A DNA stretch of 64,000 bases from an uncultured Pseudomonadota bacterium (GTDB lineage: Bacteria; Myxococcota_A; UBA796; GCA-2862545). Of this stretch, positions 6,240 through 61,169 are shown one piece after another. A program made the translations under genes and the position numbers. The DNA is taken from positions 62,001 to 126,000 of the forward strand of contig CAIOSP010000001.1 in the NCBI GenBank assembly GCA_903861005.1, in the 5' to 3' direction. How positions within the stretch are numbered: the first letter of the stretch is position 1; every line of letters starts with the position of its first letter. The notes under the pieces are model-generated. The model saw nothing but the letters and a program-made list of their open reading frames with translations, was not told the origin of the DNA and searched no databases.

Positions 6240-7568
6240 CTAGCGAGCGGTGCGGCGGTCCCTGCTGGACGGGATGCCGATGCGCTCGCGGTGCTTGGCC
6301 ACCGTGCGACGCGCGACGCCGCTGAGCCCGCTCTTGGTGAGCAGCTCGGCGATGGCGTCGTCCGACAGCGGGCTGCGCTTGTCCTCGCGCGCCACGATGT
6401 CGCGAATGGCGGCGTGCAGGCCCGCCTCGGACGTGTCCTGGCCGCTGCCGCGGTTGGCGAACAGCTCGCGCAGCGCGACGGTGCCGCCGGACCAGCGGAA
6501 GTAGCGCCCGGTGACCGCGCGCGAGATGGTCGACGTGTCGCGCTGAAGGACCTCGCCCACCTCGGCCATGGTGAGGTTCTGCAAGTGGTCTGCGCCCTGC
6601 GAGAAGTACAGGTGCTGACGCTTCACGGCGATCTCGGCGACCTGCTTCACCAGGCTGTGGCGCTCTTCCAGGCAGCGCATGACCCAGCGCGCCTGCTCCA
6701 GCTTCTCCACGGCTTCGTCGCGGGGGGGGCCCGCAGGCAGCGCGCGCACGCGGGCCTCATAGGACGGGTCGAGCTTGACCTGGCTTCGCGCCGCGTCGTG
6801 CATCTCCACGCGCCACTCGCCGGTGTCCGGATCCTGGACGATGTCCATGGAGGGGCGGACGTAGTCGGCCTCTTGATCCGCGTAGCCGCGCGCGGGCGTG
6901 GAGCCGACCTCCTCGCGCAGCATGCGGTGGTACTCCTCGACGTCCTCGGGGTCCATGTCGAGGGCCTTGGCGATCGGCGCGTAGCGGCCGCGGGTCAGGT
7001 CTTCGAGGTGGTCGCGGATGATGTCGGGAAAGAACGGGTCCTCGGGCCACTGCTCGCGCACCATGTAGGTGAGGTACTGACGCAGGTTGGATGCGCCGCA
7101 CCCTGAAGGGTCGAGGCCCATGACCACAAGCTGCGCGCTCTCGGCGTCGCCCACGGTGACGCCCGCCTCAGCGGCCACATCCTCCAGGGTGACGCCAAGG
7201 AAGCCGCGCCCGTCGAGGTTGCCCAGGAGGTACATCCCGGCCTGCCGCTCCTCGTCCGTCGTCATCTCCAGGCGGAACTGGTCGGCCAGGTGCTCGAGCA
7301 GGTCCGCGGAGGCGGACATGCGGTCTTCAATGGGCGGGAGGTCGTCGTCCGTGGCGCGCCGCGCGAACGCCTTGCCCACCTCGGTGCCGCGGCCGGTGTC
7401 CACAATGCGGGACAAGGCCGGGTTGGAGGACACCACCTCGTCCAGGTAGCCTTCCATGGCCACGTCCGGCAGCTCGATCATCTCGACCAGCTGACGCTGC
7501 ATGGGCGTCAACGTCAGCGATTGCTGCTGACGCATCTCGCCGCGCATCACCATGCCGAGAGAAACCAA
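6240..7568 (-). CDS. rpoN: RNA polymerase sigma-54 factor RpoN
   Basis: 442 residues, slightly short for the family. Region I, which binds activators, is clear near the start: [19 protein letters not shown] followed by a helix ending SNPAL. The core-binding region follows, and the DNA-binding end carries the RpoN box [15 protein letters not shown], which reads the -24 element. Sigma-54 directs activator-dependent transcription from -24/-12 promoters. The start is TTG at 7568 with a perfect AGGAGG 8 bases upstream; the nearby ATG codons lack such a site. It is divergent from guaA. A near-consensus sigma-54 promoter lies about 60 bases upstream of the start codon (separate entry). Confidence 0.95.
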
Positions 7569-7628
7569 GTTCTTCGCCTCCTGTGGTGGGACTACTCCAC
7601 TTCATGCCACGGGGAGGAACGGCTTGCA

Positions 7629-7644
7629 AGCAAGATCCGTGCCA
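7629..7644 (-). promoter_or_regulatory. Sigma-54 (-24/-12) promoter driving rpoN
   Basis: The minus strand reads TGGCACG-GATC-TTGCT, matching the sigma-54 consensus TGGCACG-N4-TTGCW at every defined position. GG and GC are 10 bases apart, as required. It points to rpoN; transcription would begin near 7618, leaving a leader of about 50 bases before the TTG start. I saw no other -24/-12 match in the intergenic gaps of this window. Confidence 0.8.
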
Positions 7645-7736
7645 CAGTCCGTGCGACGCTAATCTTGCGGGTTCCGCTGCCCGTCGATACCCGGGCGCCC
7701 GGCACGGGCGCGTTCCCCGACCGGCGGAGGGCGCGC

Positions 7737-18315: not shown

Positions 18316-21300
18316 ATGACGCGTCCCTCCCTCTTTCTCGTCGGGCTGATGTCCCTCACGGTGGCCTCGGTCGCGCTGGCCGACAGCGTGCCGCCCAAGC
18401 CCACCATGGCGCCCCGTGTGCCCGCCTACAACCTGTCCACGCAGGTGTTTGACTTCCCCACGGGCCTGCGGATCATGTTCCAGTCCGACCGCAGCTACCC
18501 GGTCGTGTCGGTCTACTCGATCATCGCCCACGGCAGCTCGGATGATCCGCCCGACAAGAAGGAGGTCGCCCACTTCGTCGAGCACACCTGGTTCCGCTCG
18601 ATCCACGGCAGCCTGCCCCCCATCATGCAGGTCGTCAGCGATCTCTCGGGCGTGTTCAACGCGTCCACCTGGAGCGACTGGACCAACTACTCCACCGTCG
18701 CCGAGTCGCAGTACCTGCCCATCCTCATGCGCCTGGAGTCCCTGCGCCTGACGGAGTTCTACGCGGGCGTCACGCCGGACGTCACCACGACCGAGCGCGA
18801 GGTCATCCGCAACGAGTGGCGCCGCCGCAACGAGAACGGCAACGCGCTGCTGTTCGACTACGCCAACAACGTCGTCTACCCGGACACGCACCCGTACCAC
18901 GCGACGTCCACCCACGACTCGATCACGAACATCACGCTCGACGACATCAAGGCCTACGTCGACGCGTACTACAAGCCCTCCGAGACCACGGTCATCGTCG
19001 TCGGTGACGTGGACCCGCAGGCCGCGTCGAGCGCCATCTTCGAGAACTTCGACATCAAGAACCTGGACCCGAAGCTCACGCCCGAGATGATCGTGCGCTA
19101 CCCACGCCCAGGCGTCGCCAAGGCGGACCCGGCCAACCCCGCGGACTGGTTCATGGGCGCCTGCGAGCCGTCCACGTTCGTCGCGTCCACGGCGACCAAG
19201 CGGGGCACCTGCGAGCCGTACAAGTTCGTCACCGCGCCGCGCTCGCCGCGCGTCTCGCCCATGGCGAGCGAGCCGCCGCCGCTCGGCACCAAGGAGGTCG
19301 TCACGCGCGAAGCCCCGGTGGACAACCCCATCGTGCTGCTCGCGTGGTCGCTCCCCGGCGGCTACCGCGCCGACCACTTCGAGCTCGACACGCTCGGTCG
19401 CTTCGCCAACGGCATCGTCGGCAACGGCCTGTTCCAGCGCTACTCCAGCGCTGAGATCGGGGACACCGGCTGCTTCGTGCAGACCGAGGTCCTCGCCTCC
19501 ACGATGATCTGCCTCGCGGAAGTGAAGAGCAAGAAGGTCAACAAGGAGGAGGTGCTCGACACCATGCTGGACCAGGTGTCCACCCTCTGGTCGGCCGACG
19601 AGCTCGTCCACATGCAGCTCAACAACGCGCTGCAGAACGTGAAGAACGTCCAGATCGCCGACTCCCTGCTCCGCCTCGACAACATCGTGTCGATCTTTGG
19701 CGGTCGCGCGGACACGGTCGGCACGTACACACACCTCACCGGCTCGACCGAGTACTACAGCGACACCATCAACAAGCTCGGTCAGATCGACCTGGGCCGC
19801 ATGGTCAGCCTCGCGTCCAAGTACCTCAAGCGCGATCGCGCCGGCCGCCTGATCGTCAACAAGCTCCCGGACGACGACGTTGACAAGTCGAACAGCTCAT
19901 CGGGCTACGTCGGCGCGTCCAAGTCGGACGACCAGATCGCGTCGAGCGACGACCTCGCGCGCGTCACGCCGGACGCCATCCGCGCCGCGTACGTGCACCC
20001 CGACCTAAGCCAGGCCACCGACACGCGCCTGTCGAACGGCCTGCGCGTGGTGATCTTGCCGCACGGCGAGGCGCCCATGGTCAACGTGTCGCTCGTCGTG
20101 GGCGGCGGCACGCTCGGCGAAGGCAAGGCCATCACCGACTTGGTCCAGACCTTCACGCACGGCGCGGGCGTCGATCCGTCGACCGCCGCCTCGTCGATGA
20201 ACTACCCGGTCTTCAACCCGCAGCTCTACGGCCTGTTCACCGAGTCGGGCCCCGCGGTCAGCCTGCCGCTGGCCGGCACGATCGGCGGCACCACGGCGCG
20301 CCTCGCGTTCTCGGGCCCGTCGGGCAACCTCGACTCCGGCCTGTGGATCCTACGCGACGAGGTCGAGTCCATGGCCCCCAACATGGACGGCCTGGGCGAC
20401 TGGAAGAAGGACTTCCATGACGCGCTGATCGCCAGCTGGAAGTCCAAGGACACCAACATTGACTGGCACATCCAGGACATGGTCTCGCAGCATCTGTACC
20501 CGAGCACGCCCTCGCGCCACGAGTACACCTGGGCGGACTACCAGACCATCCTCGGCTACGGCTCGGGCTCGGTCACGGACTACCTGAAGTCGCACCTTTA
20601 CCCGGCCAACGCCGTGCTCCTGATCGTCGGCAACGTCGACGCCAAGGCCGCGCTCGCCACCGCCGAGTCCATGTTCGGCAGCTGGAAGGGCCGCAGCGAA
20701 GGCACGACCTTCCTGGCCGACGCGCCGCCGCCCGCCATGCCGGAAGAGGGCACCAAGGTGTACCTGTTCGACAACGAGCGCGCGACGCAGTCGCAGACCA
20801 ACATGTACTGCCGCCTGAACTACGCCGGTCACCAGGACGATGGCGTGGTCGACGTGCTCGGCAGCATCGCCGGCGAGCGCGTGTTCACCCAGCTCCGCGT
20901 GAAGGAGGCCCTCTCCTACACGCCCGGCGCCTTCGCCGGTCAGACCGCCGACCGCTCGGCCACGCTGACCTTCGACTCGCTGGCCCTCAACGTCGGCGTC
21001 GGTCGCACCATCCAGTACTTCATGGAGACGGCCAAGGCGCTCGAGGCCGGTGACGTGAAGTCGGACGAGGTGACCATGCACCAGCTGCGGTCGTCGCGTC
21101 AGGCCGGCCTGGGCCGGCAGTCGGTCGAGCAGCTGGCCGGCTCGCTGTCGCGCGCCGTCGCCAACAACGACAAGGACTGGAGCAGCATCACCAACTACGG
21201 TGGCGCCCTCGCAGACGTCACGAAGGCTCGCATCGCGTCCGTCATGCAGGGCTGCTCGGACCACGCCATCGTCGTGACGTCCGGCCCCAAGGACATGATC

Positions 21301-21504
21301 GGCGCCGAGCTCGACAAGCTGGGCATCAAGTACGAGCTGGTCGATTGGAAGGCCCGCGGCGACGCGCTCTACAACGCCGCCGATCCCAAGGGCTTCGCCG
21401 CCTACGCCAAGGCTCGCGCCAAGGCCGAGGCCAAGAAGGCGAAGGACGCCGAGAACAAGCCGGAAGCTCCCGCTCCCGCCGCTCCGACCACTCCCGCGCC
21501 GTAG
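18316..21504 (+). CDS. M16-family zinc metalloprotease, two-domain, secreted
   Basis: 1062 residues. Signal peptide to about residue 23 (ending SVALADS). The first M16 domain carries the inverted zinc motif HFVEH (His86, Glu89, His90) and a distal Glu in TEREVIRNEW near 160-167. A second M16-like half starts near residue 575 (LSNGLRVVILPHGE) but has DLVQTFTHG where HxxEH should be, so it is structural, as in pitrilysin-type fused proteins. The last 30 residues are Ala/Lys/Pro-rich. Probably periplasmic or secreted peptide degradation. ATG 18316 gives the signal peptide; earlier in-frame starts run through the previous gene. Confidence 0.9.
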   Translation: MTRPSLFLVGLMSLTVASVALADSVPPKPTMAPRVPAYNLSTQVFDFPTGLRIMFQSDRSYPVVSVYSIIAHGSSDDPPDKKEVAHFVEHTWFRSIHGSLPPIMQVVSDLSGVFNASTWSDWTNYSTVAESQYLPILMRLESLRLTEFYAGVTPDVTTTEREVIRNEWRRRNENGNALLFDYANNVVYPDTHPYHATSTHDSITNITLDDIKAYVDAYYKPSETTVIVVGDVDPQAASSAIFENFDIKNLDPKLTPEMIVRYPRPGVAKADPANPADWFMGACEPSTFVASTATKRGTCEPYKFVTAPRSPRVSPMASEPPPLGTKEVVTREAPVDNPIVLLAWSLPGGYRADHFELDTLGRFANGIVGNGLFQRYSSAEIGDTGCFVQTEVLASTMICLAEVKSKKVNKEEVLDTMLDQVSTLWSADELVHMQLNNALQNVKNVQIADSLLRLDNIVSIFGGRADTVGTYTHLTGSTEYYSDTINKLGQIDLGRMVSLASKYLKRDRAGRLIVNKLPDDDVDKSNSSSGYVGASKSDDQIASSDDLARVTPDAIRAAYVHPDLSQATDTRLSNGLRVVILPHGEAPMVNVSLVVGGGTLGEGKAITDLVQTFTHGAGVDPSTAASSMNYPVFNPQLYGLFTESGPAVSLPLAGTIGGTTARLAFSGPSGNLDSGLWILRDEVESMAPNMDGLGDWKKDFHDALIASWKSKDTNIDWHIQDMVSQHLYPSTPSRHEYTWADYQTILGYGSGSVTDYLKSHLYPANAVLLIVGNVDAKAALATAESMFGSWKGRSEGTTFLADAPPPAMPEEGTKVYLFDNERATQSQTNMYCRLNYAGHQDDGVVDVLGSIAGERVFTQLRVKEALSYTPGAFAGQTADRSATLTFDSLALNVGVGRTIQYFMETAKALEAGDVKSDEVTMHQLRSSRQAGLGRQSVEQLAGSLSRAVANNDKDWSSITNYGGALADVTKARIASVMQGCSDHAIVVTSGPKDMIGAELDKLGIKYELVDWKARGDALYNAADPKGFAAYAKARAKAEAKKAKDAENKPEAPAPAAPTTPAP

Positions 21505-21517
21505 TCGCCTGGCGACC

Positions 21518-21552
21518 TCGCGCTCCCGCCTACGTCATGGGCGGGAGCGCGA
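21518..21552. terminator. 13-bp hairpin between convergent genes
   Basis: A perfect 13-bp stem (21518-21530 pairs with 21540-21552) with a 9-base loop, filling the gap between the protease stop at 21504 and the convergent stop at 21585. No T-run follows on either side. Confidence 0.6.
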
Positions 21553-21584
21553 CGGTCACCGGCGCCGAAGCGCCGACTCGCTCT

Positions 21585-22145
21585 TCAGGCCAGCAGCTCT
21601 TCGAGCTTGCGGAGCGCCTCGCGCTCGTCCGCCGACACGCTGCCCAGGCCGAACAGGCCGCCGGACGCGCGCGCGATGCGGCGGGCCTTCTCGATCAGGT
21701 CGGCCTTGAGCTTCGCCCGGTCGGACTCCGACAGCTTGGGCAGGAGCGCCTGGTGGTAGGCCTTCCAGGTGTCGAACAGCTTGGGCTCGGGGGCGCGGGT
21801 CAGCCAGCCCTCGAGCAGCGAGTACGCGGCCGAGCCACGGAACACGCCGCCCGCGACGGCCTCGACGAGGATGGCGTCGCGCTCGGACGAGTCGAGCACC
21901 TTGTCCGACCAGGCCACGTGCAGCAGGGGCACCAAGCTGAAGGCGGCGAGGGTCTCAGACGTCACGCCGAGGCCGGCGATGGTCTGCAGCACGCTCGTGT
22001 CGGACACGCCCGTGATGCTGCCGATGTCCACGGCGGCCTGCTCCTTGGCAGCGGCGTCACGAAGGGCGTTGATCAGCTTGCGGTCGCGCTCCGCGAAGAA
22101 CATGTCTTCGAGCGCCTTGCCCCGCTCGTGCAGCGTGTCGGTCAT
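21585..22145 (-). CDS. TerB-like helical protein
   Basis: 186 residues, all-helical by composition. The middle contains AWSDKVLDSSERDAILVEAV, which resembles the metal-binding helix turn of TerB/DUF533 proteins (Asp, then E of the next helix). No signal peptide, so cytoplasmic. The ATG at 22145 has AGGAG 6 bases upstream; a much longer frame upstream has no supporting start. It is divergent from the membrane-protein pair at 22303. Function unknown; TerB-like assignment is tentative. Confidence 0.7.
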   Translation of the reverse strand: MTDTLHERGKALEDMFFAERDRKLINALRDAAAKEQAAVDIGSITGVSDTSVLQTIAGLGVTSETLAAFSLVPLLHVAWSDKVLDSSERDAILVEAVAGGVFRGSAAYSLLEGWLTRAPEPKLFDTWKAYHQALLPKLSESDRAKLKADLIEKARRIARASGGLFGLGSVSADEREALRKLEELLA

Positions 22146-54422: not shown

Positions 54423-54668
54423 GCACACCTCCTGATGGCGGGGAAGACCGCCACGATCAGGATGCGCTCGCCGGAACCAAGCCGCAGTCAGCGGACCGTC
54501 AACCGCGTTGAACGGTGCGACTTCTCACCACGCCGCGCCCCACCTGTCCGGGTGGGCGCGCCGTCGCATGGCTGGCGGCCCAGCCACGGGGCTTGAACGT
54601 GACGGATGCGCGCCGAATGCGCCCGAGCCCGCGGATCTGCGTTAGTCGGCGCCGCCCGAGGAGAGCCC

Positions 54669-55790
54669 ATGACCGCGCCCCTGCTGCTCACGCCTGGCCC
54701 GCTGACCACGTCTGACGCCGTCCGCGCCGCGATGACGGTGGACTGGGGCTCCCGCGACCCTTTGTTCGTCGCCATGTCCGACGAGGTCCGCGCCACGGTC
54801 GCCACGCTCGCAGGCCCGGCCGACCAGGTCGTGTGTGTACCCGTACAGGGCAGCGGCACCTTCGCGGTCGAGGCGACGATCGGCACGCTGCTCCCGCGCG
54901 ACGGGCGGCTGCTGGTGCTCGTGAACGGCGCGTACGGTCATCGCATGGTGCAGATCGCGCGCACGGTGGGCCGCAGCGTCACCGCCTATGAGTGGGTGGA
55001 AGACGCGCCGGTCGACCCCACGCAGGTCGACGCGTTGCTCGCGGCGGACGCAGCCATCACCCACGTCGCCGTCGTGTACTGCGAGACCACCACCGGCATC
55101 CTCAACCCGCTGCGGGAGATCGCCGCCGTGGTCGCGCGACACGGTCGGCGCCTGCTGATCGACGCGATGTCCGCGTTCGGCGCGCTGCCGCTGACGCTTG
55201 CCGACGTGCCCTTTGACGCGGTGATGGCGTCCTCCAACAAGTGCCTGGAGGGCGTGCCCGGCATCGGCTTCGTCATTGTGCGCCGTGAGGTCCTGGCCAC
55301 CTGCAAGGGCAACGCGCACTCGGTCGCGCTCGATCTGTACGACCAGGCCGCGCGCTTCGAAAAGGACGGGCAGTGGCGCTTCACGCCGCCGACGCACGTG
55401 CTCGCCGCGCTCCACGCGGCGATCGTCGCACACCGCGCCGAGGGTGGCGTGGCGGGCCGTGGCGGACGCTACCTGGAGAACCGCGACATCCTCATGGCCG
55501 GCATGCGCGCGCTGGGGTTCCAGACGCTGCTGCCCGACGCGCTGCAGGCCCCGATCATCATCACGTTCCTGCAGCCCGCCTCGACTTCGTACGAGTTCGA
55601 GCGCTTCTACGACGCGCTTCGTCGGCGCGGCTTCGCGATCTACCCGGGCAAGCTCACCGTCGCGGACACGTTCCGCGTGGGCTGCATCGGGCAGGTGTTC
55701 CCCGACGACATCCGCCGCTTCCTCGTCGCCGTCCGCGAGGCGATGAACGAGCTGGGCATGACCGACGGCGCCGCCGTCACCGTGGAGTGA
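54669..55790 (+). CDS. phnW: 2-Aminoethylphosphonate:pyruvate transaminase
   Basis: 373 residues, fold type I PLP enzyme. The PLP lysine is Lys191 in ASSNKCLEGVPG; LLTPGPLTTSDAVR opens the protein and DAMSAFGALP holds the PLP-binding Asp. It transfers the amino group of 2-aminoethylphosphonate to pyruvate, giving phosphonoacetaldehyde. GGAG lies 5 bases before ATG 54669. phnX begins 2 bases after its stop, so the two form the complete two-step AEP breakdown pathway. Confidence 0.95.
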   Translation: MTAPLLLTPGPLTTSDAVRAAMTVDWGSRDPLFVAMSDEVRATVATLAGPADQVVCVPVQGSGTFAVEATIGTLLPRDGRLLVLVNGAYGHRMVQIARTVGRSVTAYEWVEDAPVDPTQVDALLAADAAITHVAVVYCETTTGILNPLREIAAVVARHGRRLLIDAMSAFGALPLTLADVPFDAVMASSNKCLEGVPGIGFVIVRREVLATCKGNAHSVALDLYDQAARFEKDGQWRFTPPTHVLAALHAAIVAHRAEGGVAGRGGRYLENRDILMAGMRALGFQTLLPDALQAPIIITFLQPASTSYEFERFYDALRRRGFAIYPGKLTVADTFRVGCIGQVFPDDIRRFLVAVREAMNELGMTDGAAVTVE

Positions 55791-55792
55791 GC

Positions 55793-56593
55793 ATGAGCCC
55801 GATCAAGGCCGTCGTGTTGGACTGGGCGGGCACCACCGTCGATCACGGCTCGCTCGCGCCGGTGGGCGTGTTCGTCGAGCTGTTCCGCCGTGAGGGCGTG
55901 CCGGTCACGATGGAGATCGCGCGTGGCCCGATGGGCGTGCACAAGCGCGACCACATCAAGCAGGTCATCGAGCTGCCGGAGGTCACCGCGCGCTGGACCG
56001 CGACCAAGGGCGCGCCGCCCACCGACGCCGACATCGACCGCATGTACGCGGCCGCCACGCCGATGCAGATCGAGGTGCTCCCGCACTACAGCGAGCTCAT
56101 CGACGGCCTGATCGACACGGTCGCCGCGCTGCGCGCCAAGGGGATCCGCATCGGCAGCACCAGCGGCTACAACCGCGAGATGTTGGACGTCGTGGAGAAG
56201 CTGGCCGCCGCCAAGGGCTACACGCCAGACTGCGCGATCGCCGCGAGCGAGGTGCCGCAGGGCAGGCCCGCGCCGTTCCTGAATTGGCGCGCCGCCGAAC
56301 GCATGGGCGTGTGGCCCGCGTCCGCGTGCGTCGCGGTCGGCGACACCCTCGTCGACGTGCAGGCCGGGCGCACCGCCGGGTTCTGGAGCGTGGGCATCGC
56401 CCGCACCGGCAACATGGTCGGCGTGAACGCCGCCGACTGGGCCGCGCTGCCCGCCGCCGAGCAGGAGGCCCGCCTCACGCGCGCCCGCGCGGCGCTGACC
56501 GAGGCCGGGGCGCACCTGGTGATCGACACCATCGCCGACCTGCCCGGCGCGATCGAGGCCCTGGAGTTGCGCGCGGCGTCCCAGGGAGCGTAG
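55793..56593 (+). CDS. phnX: Phosphonoacetaldehyde hydrolase (phosphonatase)
   Basis: 266 residues, HAD superfamily. The nucleophile is Asp10 in VLDWAGTTVD, and Lys51 in MGVHKRDHIK forms the Schiff base that marks this enzyme. SGYNREM and GDTLVDVQAG are the later HAD motifs. It splits phosphonoacetaldehyde into acetaldehyde and phosphate, completing AEP use. GGAG overlaps the phnW stop. The products feed phosphate and carbon. Confidence 0.95.
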   Translation: MSPIKAVVLDWAGTTVDHGSLAPVGVFVELFRREGVPVTMEIARGPMGVHKRDHIKQVIELPEVTARWTATKGAPPTDADIDRMYAAATPMQIEVLPHYSELIDGLIDTVAALRAKGIRIGSTSGYNREMLDVVEKLAAAKGYTPDCAIAASEVPQGRPAPFLNWRAAERMGVWPASACVAVGDTLVDVQAGRTAGFWSVGIARTGNMVGVNAADWAALPAAEQEARLTRARAALTEAGAHLVIDTIADLPGAIEALELRAASQGA

Positions 56594-56932: not shown

Positions 56933-58045
56933 TCAGGGGAGCAGGCGCGTCCAGGGGAAGCCGCCCGGGTAGGCGCCGCCACAGCCGGCGTTGGCCGGGT
57001 CGGTCGGGTCCGCCTCCGTCACCTCGACCGCGTCCGACTCACGCGCCGCGTCGTACGCGGACTGGCAGTACCAGAGCGTGCCCACGCCGTCGGTCGTCCA
57101 GTCGAACCGGCTCCACAGGCCCGGGAAGAACGCGTTGCTGGCGTCGTTCTGCGCGACCAGGAAGTTCCGCGCGGCGTACCACTGGGTGATGTTCCAGGTG
57201 CCGTAGGCCGACACCCAGGTGTGCTCGTCGATCACGTAGGCGTCGGCATAGTCGTCGGTCCACTGGCCGGTGACAGGCAGGTCGGCGACCTGCAGCCGCG
57301 TCCACGCAAAGCCGCCCGGGTAGGCGCCGCCGCAGCCTGCCGTCGTCGGGTCCGTGTCGTCCGCGCGCGGCGTGTTGAGCGCGTCCGTCAGGGTGGCGGC
57401 GTTGTAGGCGGTCTGGCAGTACCAGTCGAAGCCGCTGGCGTCGGTGGTCCAGTCGAATCGGCTCCACAGGCCCGCGCCGAACGTGTCCGGGCCGTTGTGC
57501 GCGACCACCCAGCGCTGCCTGTTGGAGAAGCGCTCCACCTCGTAGCTGCCGAAGTCGAACCAGACGTGGTTGTCGATGTCGTGGCCGTAGCCGTAGTCGT
57601 CGACCCACGACCCCATCAGCGCGAGCGGGTCGGAGACGTGGCGCTGAACGGTCGCGGTCTTGCGAGCGCGACCGCCGCCGTAGACCACCGCCTGGAACAC
57701 CGACGTGCTGTGCGCCGCGCGGGCCGGCACGTTCACCCGGATCTGCGCGCGGCCGTCCGCGCCCACGGTGCCCCGACCCACAAGCGCCGGGTTGAGGATG
57801 TCGAGGCACACGCCGGAGCAGGGCCCCGCGCCGACGCGGCCGCCCTGAAACAGCATCACGCCCGCGCCGATCGACGTGCTGGTCACGGTGATCGTGACGC
57901 GGTCGCCGTGCACCACGGTCGGGACCGACAGCGCGGGCGCCGCCACCGGCGGTGGCGCAACGTCGGTCGGCGCAACCAGGGGAGTCAGGGCCGCGGACTC
58001 GGGCGTACAGGCCGCAAGCGCGACAAAAAACAGAGGGCGGAACAT
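56933..58045 (-). CDS. B12-riboswitch-controlled lipoprotein with two tandem domains
   Basis: 370 residues. Signal MFRPLFFVALAAC, lipobox LAAC, a Pro/Ala linker, an Ig-like strand-rich region (about 45-140; GDRVTITVTSTSIGAGVMLF), then two copies of a domain of about 100 residues. Both copies contain GLWSRFDWTTD, W-Y-C-Q in (F/L)WYCQ(T/S)AY, and GCGGAYPGGF(A/P)WTRL, with Asp/Trp-rich starts (GSWVDDYGYGHDID / GQWTDDYADAYVID). Two Cys per copy could form a disulphide. No described family recognised. AGGAG lies 5 bases before the ATG but is inside a hairpin under a cobalamin riboswitch. Role in corrinoid capture is inferred. Confidence 0.85.
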   Translation of the reverse strand: MFRPLFFVALAACTPESAALTPLVAPTDVAPPPVAAPALSVPTVVHGDRVTITVTSTSIGAGVMLFQGGRVGAGPCSGVCLDILNPALVGRGTVGADGRAQIRVNVPARAAHSTSVFQAVVYGGGRARKTATVQRHVSDPLALMGSWVDDYGYGHDIDNHVWFDFGSYEVERFSNRQRWVVAHNGPDTFGAGLWSRFDWTTDASGFDWYCQTAYNAATLTDALNTPRADDTDPTTAGCGGAYPGGFAWTRLQVADLPVTGQWTDDYADAYVIDEHTWVSAYGTWNITQWYAARNFLVAQNDASNAFFPGLWSRFDWTTDGVGTLWYCQSAYDAARESDAVEVTEADPTDPANAGCGGAYPGGFPWTRLLP

Positions 58046-58046
58046 A

Positions 58047-58068
58047 GGAACTCCTGCTCGGGAGTCCC
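58047..58068 (-). promoter_or_regulatory. SD-sequestering hairpin (riboswitch expression platform)
   Basis: On the minus strand GGGACTCC-CGAGCA-GGAGTTCC forms eight pairs (one G-U). The 3' arm contains GGAG of the ribosome site (58051-58055), and the start codon follows one base later. A competing pairing exists: TCCCCGG (minus 58130-58124) with CCGGGGA (58071-58065), seven bases, which would open this hairpin. That is the layout of a translational OFF switch. Confidence 0.75.
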
Positions 58069-58141
58069 CGGATCACGGCGGAACGAAGACGCGGCTGTGC
58101 CACGCCCTCCCTCCATCCCTGGACCGGGGATGTGGGTGGAA

Positions 58142-58300
58142 CGTCGACGCACCAGGTCTCCCGACTGACGGCCATTCTCCCCACCGCCTTCCCGGGCCTG
58201 TGCCCAGTGGCTTCGTGGTGGGGCTCGACCGCTCACGGTGGCGGCACCGTGCCGGAATTGCACCGGCTTCCCTCTTGCGCTCCTCCGGAGAGGAGCGAAT
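58142..58300 (-). promoter_or_regulatory. Cobalamin (B12) riboswitch aptamer
   Basis: Read on the minus strand, conserved blocks of the cobalamin riboswitch occur in order: AGAGGGAAGCCGGTGCAATTCC, GCCGCCACCGTGAGCGG, GAAGCCACTGGGC, GGGAAGGCGG, GAATGGCCGTCAG and GGGAGACCTGG. The P3 arm region GCCGGTG-CAATT-CCGGC pairs, as does CCGCCACCGTGAGCGG. The aptamer ends about 100 bases before the lipoprotein ATG at 58045. The exact outer boundary (P1) is uncertain by about 10 bases. Confidence 0.93.
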
Positions 58301-58312
58301 GCGACGAACAAG

Positions 58313-58336
58313 ATCGCGAACGCGATGTCCGCGGAC
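58313..58336. promoter_or_regulatory. Adjacent palindromes in the bioB/riboswitch gap
   Basis: ATCGCG-AA-CGCGAT (58313-58326) is directly followed by GTCCGCGGAC (58327-58336), a perfect 10-bp palindrome. They lie between the two divergent transcripts and may be operator sites. A half-site-like TTTACAA follows at 58338, resembling one half of a BirA operator, but its partner is absent. Confidence 0.4.
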
Positions 58337-58439: not shown

Positions 58440-59453
58440 ATGAACGCCCCCGCCGTCCGTCATGACTGGACGACCGAAGAAGTGCTCGCCCTGTTTCAGC
58501 TGCCCTTCCTGGCGCTGCTGGACCGTGCGCGCGACACCCACCGCGCCTTTCAGGACCCGACCAAGGTCCAGCTGGCCACGCTCGCGAACATCAAGCCGGG
58601 CGGCTGCACCGAGGACTGCGCGTACTGCCCGCAGGCAGCTCGGTACTCCACCGGCGTGAAGCCCGGCAAGCTGATGCAGGTGGAAGAGGTGGTCCGCGCC
58701 GCCAAGGCCGCCAAGGAGGCTGGCGCCAGCCGCTTCTGCATGGGCGCCGCGTGGCGCGAGGTGCGTGAAGGTGCCGCCTTCGATCGCGTCGTCGACATGG
58801 TCCGCGAGGTCAACGCCTTGGGCGTCGAGGTGTGCGTCACGTTGGGCATGCTCGACGGCCCGCAGATCCAGCGCCTCAAGGAGGCCGGCCTGTCGGCGTA
58901 CAACCACAACCTCGACACCAGCCGCGAATTCTACGACGACATCATCTCCACGCGCACCTACGACGACCGCCTCAAGACGCTCGCCCACGTGCGCGAGGCC
59001 GGGGTGAGCGTGTGCTGCGGCGGGATCGTCGGCATGGGCGAGACGCTGCGCGACCGCGCTGGCCTGATCGCCACGCTCGGCAACCTCAACCCGCACCCTG
59101 AGTCCGTGCCGATCAACAAGCTGGTGCAGGCCAAGGGCACGCCGCTCGAGGGTCAGCCTGAGCTGGACAGCGTCGAGTACGTTCGCACGGTCGCCGTGGC
59201 CCGCATCGTCATGCCGCGCTCGATGGTGCGCCTGGCGGCCGGTCGCCTGTCGCTCTCGCGCGAGGCGCGCATCTTGGCCTTTCAGGCTGGCGCCAACAGC
59301 ATCTTCTACGGCGAGACGCTGCTCACCACCGCAAACCCCGCGGTGGACGAAGACCTGGCGCTGCTCAAGGAGCTCGGCCTCACCCCGATGGAGGCGCGCT
59401 GCGCCATCTCCGTGCCGGTGGTGCACGAGCACGATCACGACGCGCATGCGTGA
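58440..59453 (+). CDS. bioB: Biotin synthase
   Basis: 337 residues, radical SAM. The 4Fe-4S ligands are Cys56, Cys60 and Cys63 in [28 protein letters not shown] and [34 protein letters not shown] are family blocks (AGRLSLSRE carries the conserved Arg of the 2Fe-2S site). It inserts sulphur into dethiobiotin. A His/Asp-rich tail (EHDHDAHA) ends it. GGAGG lies 4 bases before the ATG. It overlaps bioF by 8 bases. Confidence 0.97.
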
Positions 59454-60552
59454 CCTGCGCGCCCGCCTGGACGCGCTCGCGGCGCGCGACCAGCGCCGCG
59501 AGCTGAGATCGACGCACGGCGTCGATCTCACCAGCAACGACTACCTCGGCCTGTCGACGCACCCGCGCATCCGCGACGCGCTGATCGACGCGCTGACGCG
59601 CGGCGCGCCGCACGGTGGGACCGGGTCACGGCTGTTGAGCGGGCAGCACGCGGCGTGGTCGGACCTGGAGGCGCGCTTCGCGGCCTGGCAGGGCGCGGAT
59701 GCGGCGCTCTACTTTGCCACCGGGTTCGGCGCGAACACGGGCCTGATCGCCTCGCTCGCCCAGCCCGACGACGTGATCGTGAGCGACGCGCTCAACCACG
59801 CGAGCCTGATCGACGGCGCGCGCCTGTCGCGCGCCGAGCGCGTGATCGTGCCGCACGGCGACGTCCACGCGGTGGACGCGGCGCTCACCGCGCGTCCCGG
59901 TCGCAACGCCTGGGTGGTGATCGAGAGCCTGCACAGCATGGAAGGAGACGAGCCCGCGCTCCTCCCCTACGTGGAGGTGTGCGAGCGCCACGGCGCGCGT
60001 CTGATCGTCGACGACGCGCACGCGACGGGGCTGGACGGGCCGCAAGGTCAGGGCCTCGTGGTCCGCGACGGCTTGCGCGAGCGCGTGTTCGCGAGCGTCC
60101 ACACCTGCGGCAAGGCGCTAGGCCAGAGCGGCGCGTTCGTCGTCGGGTCGCAGGACCTGATCGACTGGCTGGTGAACGCGGCGCGGCCCTTCATCTTCTC
60201 GACCGCGCCGGCGCCGTTCCTGGCCGCAGGCCTGCACGCGGCGATCGACGTGGTCTCGAGCGACCCTGAGCTTCGGGCGCGCCCGAGAGCGCTCGCGGAC
60301 CGCCTGCGCAATGGACTGCGGGGTCGGGTGGACACCGGGCGGTCAACAGGTCCCATCGTACCTCTAATTGTCGGCACGAACGCCGCGGCACTCGCGTTGC
60401 AGTCCAAACTTGCGACGCGGGGCTGGGATGCCCGCGCCATTCGACCGCCTACCGTCGCCGAAGGAGCCAGCAGGGTGCGCGTGGTCATGCGCGCGCCGCT
60501 CACCGAGGCCCAGGTCGATTCACTCGTGGGGGACGTGTGCGCAGCAATCTGA
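59446..60552 (+). CDS. bioF: 8-Amino-7-oxononanoate synthase
   Basis: 368 residues, PLP alpha-oxoamine synthase. The PLP Lys is Lys223 in [24 protein letters not shown] near the start and [15 protein letters not shown] hold cofactor contacts. It joins pimeloyl-ACP (or -CoA) and alanine, the first ring-building step of biotin synthesis. Start overlaps bioB by 8 bases, and it overlaps bioD by 16, giving tight coupling. Confidence 0.96.
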
Positions 60553-61169
60553 ACCACGTGTGGCCCAACCCGCTCTACGTCACCGGGACCGACACACACG
60601 TGGGCAAGACCTACGCGTGCGCGGCGCTCTGTGCGGCGCTCGGGCGGGACTACTGGAAGCCCGTGCAGGCCGGCCTGGACGGTCCAACCGACTCTGAGAT
60701 CGTCGCGAAGCTGTCGGGCGCGCGCGTCTGGCCTGAGCGCTACCGCCTGCGCCGCGCCGCGAGCCCGCACGCCGGGTCACGCGACGAGGGCGTCGTCATC
60801 CAGCCGACCGACTTCGTGGCGCCCACCGCGCGGCCGCTCGTCGTCGAAGGCGCGGGCGGGTGGATGGTCCCCTACGCCACCCACCCGATGGTGTGGCAGT
60901 CCGACGTGGTCCGCGCGCTGGAGCTGCCCGTGGTCGTCGTCGCGCGCACGAGCCTCGGCACGCTGAACCACACGCTCTCGACGCTCCGCGCGATCCGCGC
61001 CGACAGCGTGCGCGTGGCGGGCCTGATCCTGGTCGGCGAGTCGCACCCGGAGAACGAGGCGGACCTGGCCATCATGGGCGAGACCACCGTGCTCGCGCGG
61101 CTTCCACGGCTGGACGAGACCGGCGCCCAATTCGCCACGCTCGTGGAGACGATCAGGGCGTACAGGTAG
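60537..61169 (+). CDS. bioD: Dethiobiotin synthetase
   Basis: 210 residues. P-loop VTGTDTHVGKTYAC near 14-27, KPVQAGL and VVEGAGGWMVP are family motifs. It closes the ureido ring of dethiobiotin using ATP and CO2. GTG 60537 has GGGGG 4 bases upstream and lies inside bioF. The end overlaps the convergent lipoprotein gene by 17 bases. bioA (the step between BioF and BioD) is not in this window. Confidence 0.94.
   Translation: MRSNLNHVWPNPLYVTGTDTHVGKTYACAALCAALGRDYWKPVQAGLDGPTDSEIVAKLSGARVWPERYRLRRAASPHAGSRDEGVVIQPTDFVAPTARPLVVEGAGGWMVPYATHPMVWQSDVVRALELPVVVVARTSLGTLNHTLSTLRAIRADSVRVAGLILVGESHPENEADLAIMGETTVLARLPRLDETGAQFATLVETIRAYR

Follow-up and report, generated by a model that had tools for sequence, protein, structure and literature searches.

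A lipoprotein gene preceded by a cobalamin riboswitch, found in the window (the whole stretch of DNA that was analysed, 64,000 nucleotides long), probably represents a new family of B12-repressed outer-membrane lipoproteins for corrinoid acquisition that work together with a LIC13355-like partner and BtuB. B12-capturing surface lipoproteins that serve BtuB have been described in detail for gut Bacteroides. There is now strong genomic evidence for a separate capture set, made of different domains and distributed across a phylum of environmental bacteria. The pairing also provides a testable function for two protein families of unknown role, one of which is absent from Pfam, and suggests a B12-related role for a gene pair of Leptospira, one of whose products has been investigated as an adhesin.

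The riboswitch that the original prediction placed on the minus strand ahead of the lipoprotein proved to be real, and the coordinates given for it were accurate to a few tens of bases. A covariance-model search with RF00174 returned a strong match that spans model positions 1-189 of 189 and scores 103.8 bits in cmscan, compared with a gathering score of 31.5 (Table 1). This is the single Rfam match in the whole window and also the only B12 switch in the window genome, an assembly of 5.8 Mb that is 96.7% complete. The aptamer is followed after 91 nt by the ATG of the lipoprotein gene, on the same strand and with no gene between them. Because bioB upstream is divergent and the gene downstream is convergent, the lipoprotein gene is the only plausible target of the riboswitch. 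Both flanks were read from the sequence: on one side lies a look-alike pair of 2-aminoethylphosphonate transaminase and phosphonoacetaldehyde hydrolase (window 54606-56593, plus strand), and on the other a bioB-bioF-bioD cluster (window 58440-61169, plus strand).

Table 1. Features of the riboswitch-lipoprotein locus, in window coordinates.
Feature	Position	Strand	Basis
Cobalamin riboswitch aptamer, RF00174, complete	58136-58316	minus	cmscan, 103.8 bits, E 6.8e-25
Hairpin CATCCC-CGGTCCA-GGGATG, directly 3' of the aptamer	58114-58132	minus	sequence reading
Possible ligand-free helix, CCCCGG (58124-58129) / CCGGGG (58066-58071)	58066-58129	minus	predicted, minimum-free-energy fold
Candidate hairpin hiding the ribosome-binding site, GGGGACTCC-CGAGCA-GGAGTTCCT	58046-58069	minus	predicted, forced fold
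B12-switched lipoprotein, 370 aa	56933-58045	minus	ORF; one copy in genome; no Pfam family
Short signal peptide with lipobox MFRPLFFVALAAC (LAAC; lipidated Cys13)	58007-58045	minus	sequence reading
N-terminal module (about aa 36-140)	57626-57940	minus	homologue comparison
Trp/Cys domain copy 1 (about aa 143-251)	57293-57619	minus	profile match, 112.8 bits
Trp/Cys domain copy 2 (about aa 258-368)	56942-57274	minus	profile match, 126.6 bits

The same arrangement recurs widely. Among 379 sampled Myxococcota genomes, 118 encode the Trp/Cys domain of the lipoprotein. Within the order of the window genome, matches to the domain and to RF00174 were compared in the same 58 genomes, and a co-oriented B12 switch precedes the domain at 29 of 40 loci (29 of the 35 that are assessable), always within about 1.1 kb and typically 75-500 nt from the domain match. 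Five of the 11 loci without a switch are truncated where a contig stops; the other six are mostly additional copies, belonging to genomes that hold another copy of the domain. Beyond the order, a survey of the phylum fetched 60 loci, of which 54 offered 600 nt or more of upstream sequence and were assessed; at 38 of these a switch reaches the cut-off, directly upstream and on the same strand, and at three further loci (L172, L185 and L188) one falls just below it (E 0.0005-0.006). A separate scan of named genomes with a close 9-row alignment of the domain gave the same pattern, with the cultured Enhygromyxa salina (L074) and a genome from the Bradymonadales (L072) among the cases. A minority of the homologues have no detectable switch, and one closely related genome (G001, 85% complete) is devoid of switch, Trp/Cys domain and LIC13355-like partner alike. 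The expectation that homologues would be found near B12 switches or transport genes is thus borne out, with a switch directly upstream at most assessable loci.

The switches, counted from the other side, lead to a short list of genes. Across the 58 genomes, the first targets of 84 switches are a BtuB-like TonB receptor in 37 cases, the Trp/Cys domain in 27 and a LIC13355-like protein in 6; of the 14 others, three lie ahead of loci that contain cbiC. Since a genome holds only about 1.4 B12 switches, linkage to a given gene by chance is expected at about 1e-4. The view that the switch arose by chance or has decayed, and has no functional tie to the gene behind it, is hardly credible against a complete model match of such a score and an arrangement repeated at dozens of divergent loci, and on the same two grounds a chance or mis-called switch was rejected.

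Individual loci in these surveys showed further peculiarities. L149, L152 and L154, which all come from a single family, have a cluster of tRNA genes and the small SRP RNA immediately ahead of the switch-lipoprotein gene. In a genome with four B12 switches, one switch stands ahead of a WD40-type beta-propeller protein (L033:3-1481; G037:C85), which is possibly a BtuG-like protein outside Bacteroidota. Another genome carries a switch with a BtuB-like receptor twice on one contig (G038:C215:10149-11803 and 20086-21740), inverted and with identical scores, either through a recent inverted duplication or as an assembly artefact. Finally, the locus L065 lies on a contig deposited as part of a Bifidobacterium breve MAG (CALQBK020000289.1) and is nearly identical to L064, the source of which is a lake MAG labelled 'uncultured proteobacterium' from the same order as the window; the Bifidobacterium breve label looks wrong.

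How the switch acts can be approached by modelling the leader. A search of the leader from aptamer to ATG turned up no terminator, and according to the modelled folds the control mode is most likely repression of translation by cobalamin. The hairpin directly 3' of the aptamer sits where known cobalamin switches have P13/L13, from which its name is taken by analogy, and at many related loci the aptamer is likewise followed by a hairpin with a CGG-containing loop. In the minimum-free-energy fold of the leader (-54.0 kcal/mol), CCCCGG, which comprises the 5' arm and loop of this P13-type hairpin, is predicted to pair with CCGGGG just upstream of the ribosome-binding site. When P13 is forced to form (-45.0 kcal/mol), the model contains a 9-pair hairpin that would hide the ribosome-binding site: AGGAG at 58051-58055 lies inside it, and its end adjoins the ATG at 58045. 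CCGGGG is also part of this hiding hairpin, which makes the two pairings mutually exclusive, and the predicted ligand-free fold prefers the CCCCGG/CCGGGG helix by these energies. In related leaders the helix pair reads CCTCGG/CCGAGG (L003, L015 and L021) or CCCCGG/CCGGGG (L006 and L166), a variation that is suggestive of covariation. Equivalents of the hiding hairpin are present in the minimum-free-energy folds of L006, L015 and L021, and at these loci the lowest-energy structure is already the hidden one; the folding model is therefore not uniform, and the expression platform it describes agrees with the window and with some relatives without extending to every locus. Under this model, the ribosome-binding site would be left accessible and the lipoprotein made when B12 is scarce, and as adenosyl- or another cobalamin builds up the aptamer would close and translation would be repressed.

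The product of the gene has a modular architecture. Behind a signal peptide with a lipobox, a feature present in many of its homologues, come an N-terminal module and two tandem copies of the Trp/Cys domain of ~110 aa each, and the domain is confined to this one gene in the window genome. The reading of the protein as carrying two copies of an unrecognised Trp/Cys-rich domain was confirmed, as the copies are 52% identical to each other and no Pfam family matches the lipoprotein even at permissive E, a result that also ruled out a known Pfam domain as the identity of the Trp/Cys domain. A search of the PDB with the family profile found no sequence relatives of the domain, and the idea that it is a sequence relative of a solved structure was rejected. 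Plasmid records contained no relatives. In other homologues, acidic or Gly-rich linkers or EGF-like segments take the place of the N-terminal module. This module alone weakly matches parts of unrelated-looking proteins in four relatives (G014, G019, G017 and G010) and, judging from these similarities, may represent a domain found generally in proteins that Myxococcota export.

The nearest named family came from NCBIfam, where two stretches of the lipoprotein weakly match NF047669, the 'LIC13354 family exoprotein'. The match scores 26.8 bits (E 5.3e-6) and does not reach the curated cut-off of 130 bits, so that by sequence comparison the lipoprotein is a distant relative of NF047669 and a non-member by the NCBI definition. 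Across the family, proteins carry one to three or more copies of the domain, usually behind a lipobox and a linker. In an alignment of 164 Trp/Cys domains, two Cys and one Trp are invariant, and W20, W59, N43, D89 and A82 are nearly so; as the domain is exported, the invariant Cys pair points to a disulfide. The AlphaFold2 model of copy 2, built from 29 sequences, is all beta with a mean pLDDT of 91.7. Its best Foldseek matches are Bacteroides lipocalin-like proteins, followed by CRABP and avidin-type barrels, and the match to the lipocalin/calycin fold is weak and below significance (E 0.065, TM about 0.37).

A capture system of this kind would suit the physiology predicted for the host. The window genome encodes MetH with its reactivation domain, and neither MetE nor CbiC was found in it at 96.7% completeness, which predicts a reliance on imported B12. 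Of the 58 relatives, 55 lack CbiC, and most relatives examined seem incapable of B12 synthesis. Genes for a BtuB-like receptor and a FecCD-type permease, which could serve import, are present in the window genome. Subject to the incompleteness of the genomes, gene content indicates that the window organism and its relatives should depend on imported corrinoid.

Two points would allow a periplasmic location: the FecCD-type permease in the genome, and lipoprotein sorting that is unreadable from sequence here. A periplasmic corrinoid carrier, a lipid-anchored substitute for BtuF that relays its cargo to an ABC importer, is nevertheless improbable. Among the loci inspected, ABC importer genes never share an operon with a homologue, whose operon companions are lipoproteins and the outer-membrane receptor, and the long acidic, Gly-rich or EGF-like linkers that follow the lipobox suit an outward-facing tether. 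An outer-membrane acquisition protein remains the preferred reading, and its partners can be named.

The usual partner is a LIC13355-like protein, from a second family of surface lipoproteins. In the 58 genomes, 35 have both this family and the Trp/Cys domain, 20 have neither, and the discordant cases number 1 and 2, an agreement in 55 of 58 genomes (Fisher P 2.5e-12). The partner is adjacent at 25 of the 40 domain loci of the order, and fusions of the two are found at L080 and L144, which represent a single gene, and at L063, L071, L083, L163 and L174. In two relatives (G004:C39 and G016:C71), an apparent operon runs from the switch through the Trp/Cys lipoprotein and the LIC13355-like protein to a BtuB-type TonB receptor. 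The operon of G004 spans L208:6630-11660 and has a further ORF at its end (6630-7724); a reading of this ORF as a repeat beta-propeller lipoprotein was discarded, as it came from a resemblance seen by eye that no family or PDB match backs. In the window genome the LIC13355-like protein is encoded on contig C91 and the BtuB-like receptor on C82, neither with a switch, and the lipoprotein stands alone, apart from both. The original prediction had called the lipoprotein solitary, which holds for the window genome but not elsewhere, where it usually travels with the LIC13355-like lipoprotein.

The window genome's copy on C91 was detected by a profile built in this analysis, and the Leptospira model NF033170 gave no match to it. 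Matches to NF033170 were obtained in 21 of 21 partners, and matches to NF047669 in 20 of 29 Trp/Cys domains; sequence comparison therefore supports equating the two families with those of the Leptospira pair. The AlphaFold model of the LIC13355-like domain (pLDDT 89.6) matches only one PDB chain below E 0.001, namely BtuG1 of the B. theta BtuB1-BtuG1 complex (8blw_B; E 2.3e-4, TM 0.55), the match being given for the chain as a whole. BtuG1 is a BtuG-BtuH fusion (PMC10404256), and no sequence link was found between the LIC13355-like domain and solved BtuH structures.

That the fold match to a known B12-uptake complex lies in the partner and not in the Trp/Cys domain favours a different division of labour, in which the Trp/Cys protein is no binder but an accessory, a lid, adaptor or spacer that serves as structural or assembly partner of a corrinoid-binding LIC13355-like protein and BtuB. 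Precedents exist in B. theta, where the Btu lipoproteins BtuL and BtuK2 showed no cobalamin binding (PMC12751083), and the number of tandem copies varies from 1 to 3 or more. We consider the accessory role unlikely, although it deserves to be weighed seriously: the Trp/Cys domain comes with a switch of its own and can occur by itself, which is the case in the window; the partner is not co-regulated in the window genome; and the conserved polar and aromatic residues of the domain (N43, R56, W59 and W108) exceed what a spacer would need.

A second phylum provides an independent view of the two families. Leptospira LIC13354 (NF047669) and LIC_13355 (NF033170) are distant homologues of the Trp/Cys domain and its partner, respectively. 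Their genes, LA_4202 (LIC13354) and LA_4203 (LIC13355), lie side by side at the start of the five-gene cob II cluster, ahead of cobT, cobS and cobC, and they are present in all 20 Leptospira species compared, saprophytes included (in the saprophyte L. biflexa the likely orthologues are LEPBI_I2857/I2858); the authors of that study remarked that they 'may or may not participate in B12 biosynthesis' (PMC4758666). The position at the head of the cobTSC cluster holds for infectious species. Unlike the Myxococcota loci, the Leptospira pair has no reported B12 switch, the two known switches of Leptospira preceding btuB and the cob I/III cluster instead. In the papers found, a B12 function was never assigned to the pair. 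Because the two genes are adjacent and lie in a cobTSC cluster, both the family pairing and the B12 link recur in this second phylum, in a different arrangement.

Leptospira also supplies the evidence for a function other than uptake. LIC_13355 has been studied as an adhesin, with reported binding to laminin, plasminogen and endothelial cells (PMC11891782), and by extension the family could consist of surface proteins such as adhesins or lytic or predation factors, which B12 represses merely as a signal of nutrient status. We give this very little credence. The protein used in the adhesin assays had been refolded from an insoluble form (PMC11891782), saprophytic species carry the genes too, and linkage to B12 genes is seen in two phyla, where the pair is kept with BtuB or with cobTSC.

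Corrinoid acquisition thus remains the preferred function. The proposed role in corrinoid-related capture at the surface or in the periplasm is supported by switches throughout the phylum, BtuB operons in two relatives and the Leptospira cobTSC cluster. The link to corrinoids, originally drawn from the switch alone, stands, although its basis is wider than that and now includes the partner, the BtuB operons and cobTSC. In the scheme that we favour, the lipoprotein would be tethered to the outer membrane through its lipidated Cys and probably be exposed to the outside. One to three or more small, disulfide-stabilised, beta-barrel-like domains would capture corrinoids together with the LIC13355-like jelly-roll lipoprotein, and the captured corrinoids would be handed to a BtuB-type TonB receptor. 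Here we infer direct binding and hand-over of corrinoids by the lipoprotein, as well as its surface location, the direction of regulation and the translational mechanism. A bolder proposal is that the Trp/Cys domain is a new corrinoid-binding fold with no kinship to BtuG, BtuH or BtuJ and constitutes, with the LIC13355-like protein, a second, independently evolved system for surface B12 capture in Myxococcota and Leptospira; we put it forward tentatively, at slightly below an even chance. If it is true, Leptospira proteins now studied as adhesins would be B12-acquisition proteins.

Among known systems, a likeness is seen to BtuG of Bacteroides, also a lipoprotein under cobalamin-riboswitch control in B12-scavenging bacteria. 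In the open-licence literature, we found no paper describing a B12-switched lipoprotein of the present kind outside Bacteroidota. The link to BtuB is seen here in relatives: G004:C39 and G016:C71 share the BtuG-like gene layout that pairs lipoprotein and BtuB, whereas the window has switch and lipoprotein only, with BtuB elsewhere. The proteins themselves differ, BtuG being a seven-bladed beta-propeller and the window protein consisting of tandem 110-aa all-beta domains with an invariant Cys pair; no propeller family in Pfam matches the lipoprotein. BtuH and BtuJ (DUF4465) of Bacteroides provide a second comparison, as extra switch-regulated capture lipoproteins beside BtuB-BtuG. Their domains differ from the Trp/Cys domain, which has no Pfam match or PDB sequence match to them and no such fold among the Foldseek matches listed, and the BtuG/BtuH fold match belongs to the LIC13355-like partner alone. 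The small antiparallel beta fold of the lipocalin/calycin superfamily offers a third likeness, with scores for the Trp/Cys domain that are not significant. In Bacteroides, BtuG and BtuH domains may be joined in one protein (PMC10404256, PMC12751083), in parallel with the Trp/Cys-LIC13355-like fusions. Taken at the level of sequence and gene order, these comparisons are best explained by a lipoprotein family that would be analogous, and not related, to BtuG, BtuH and BtuJ.
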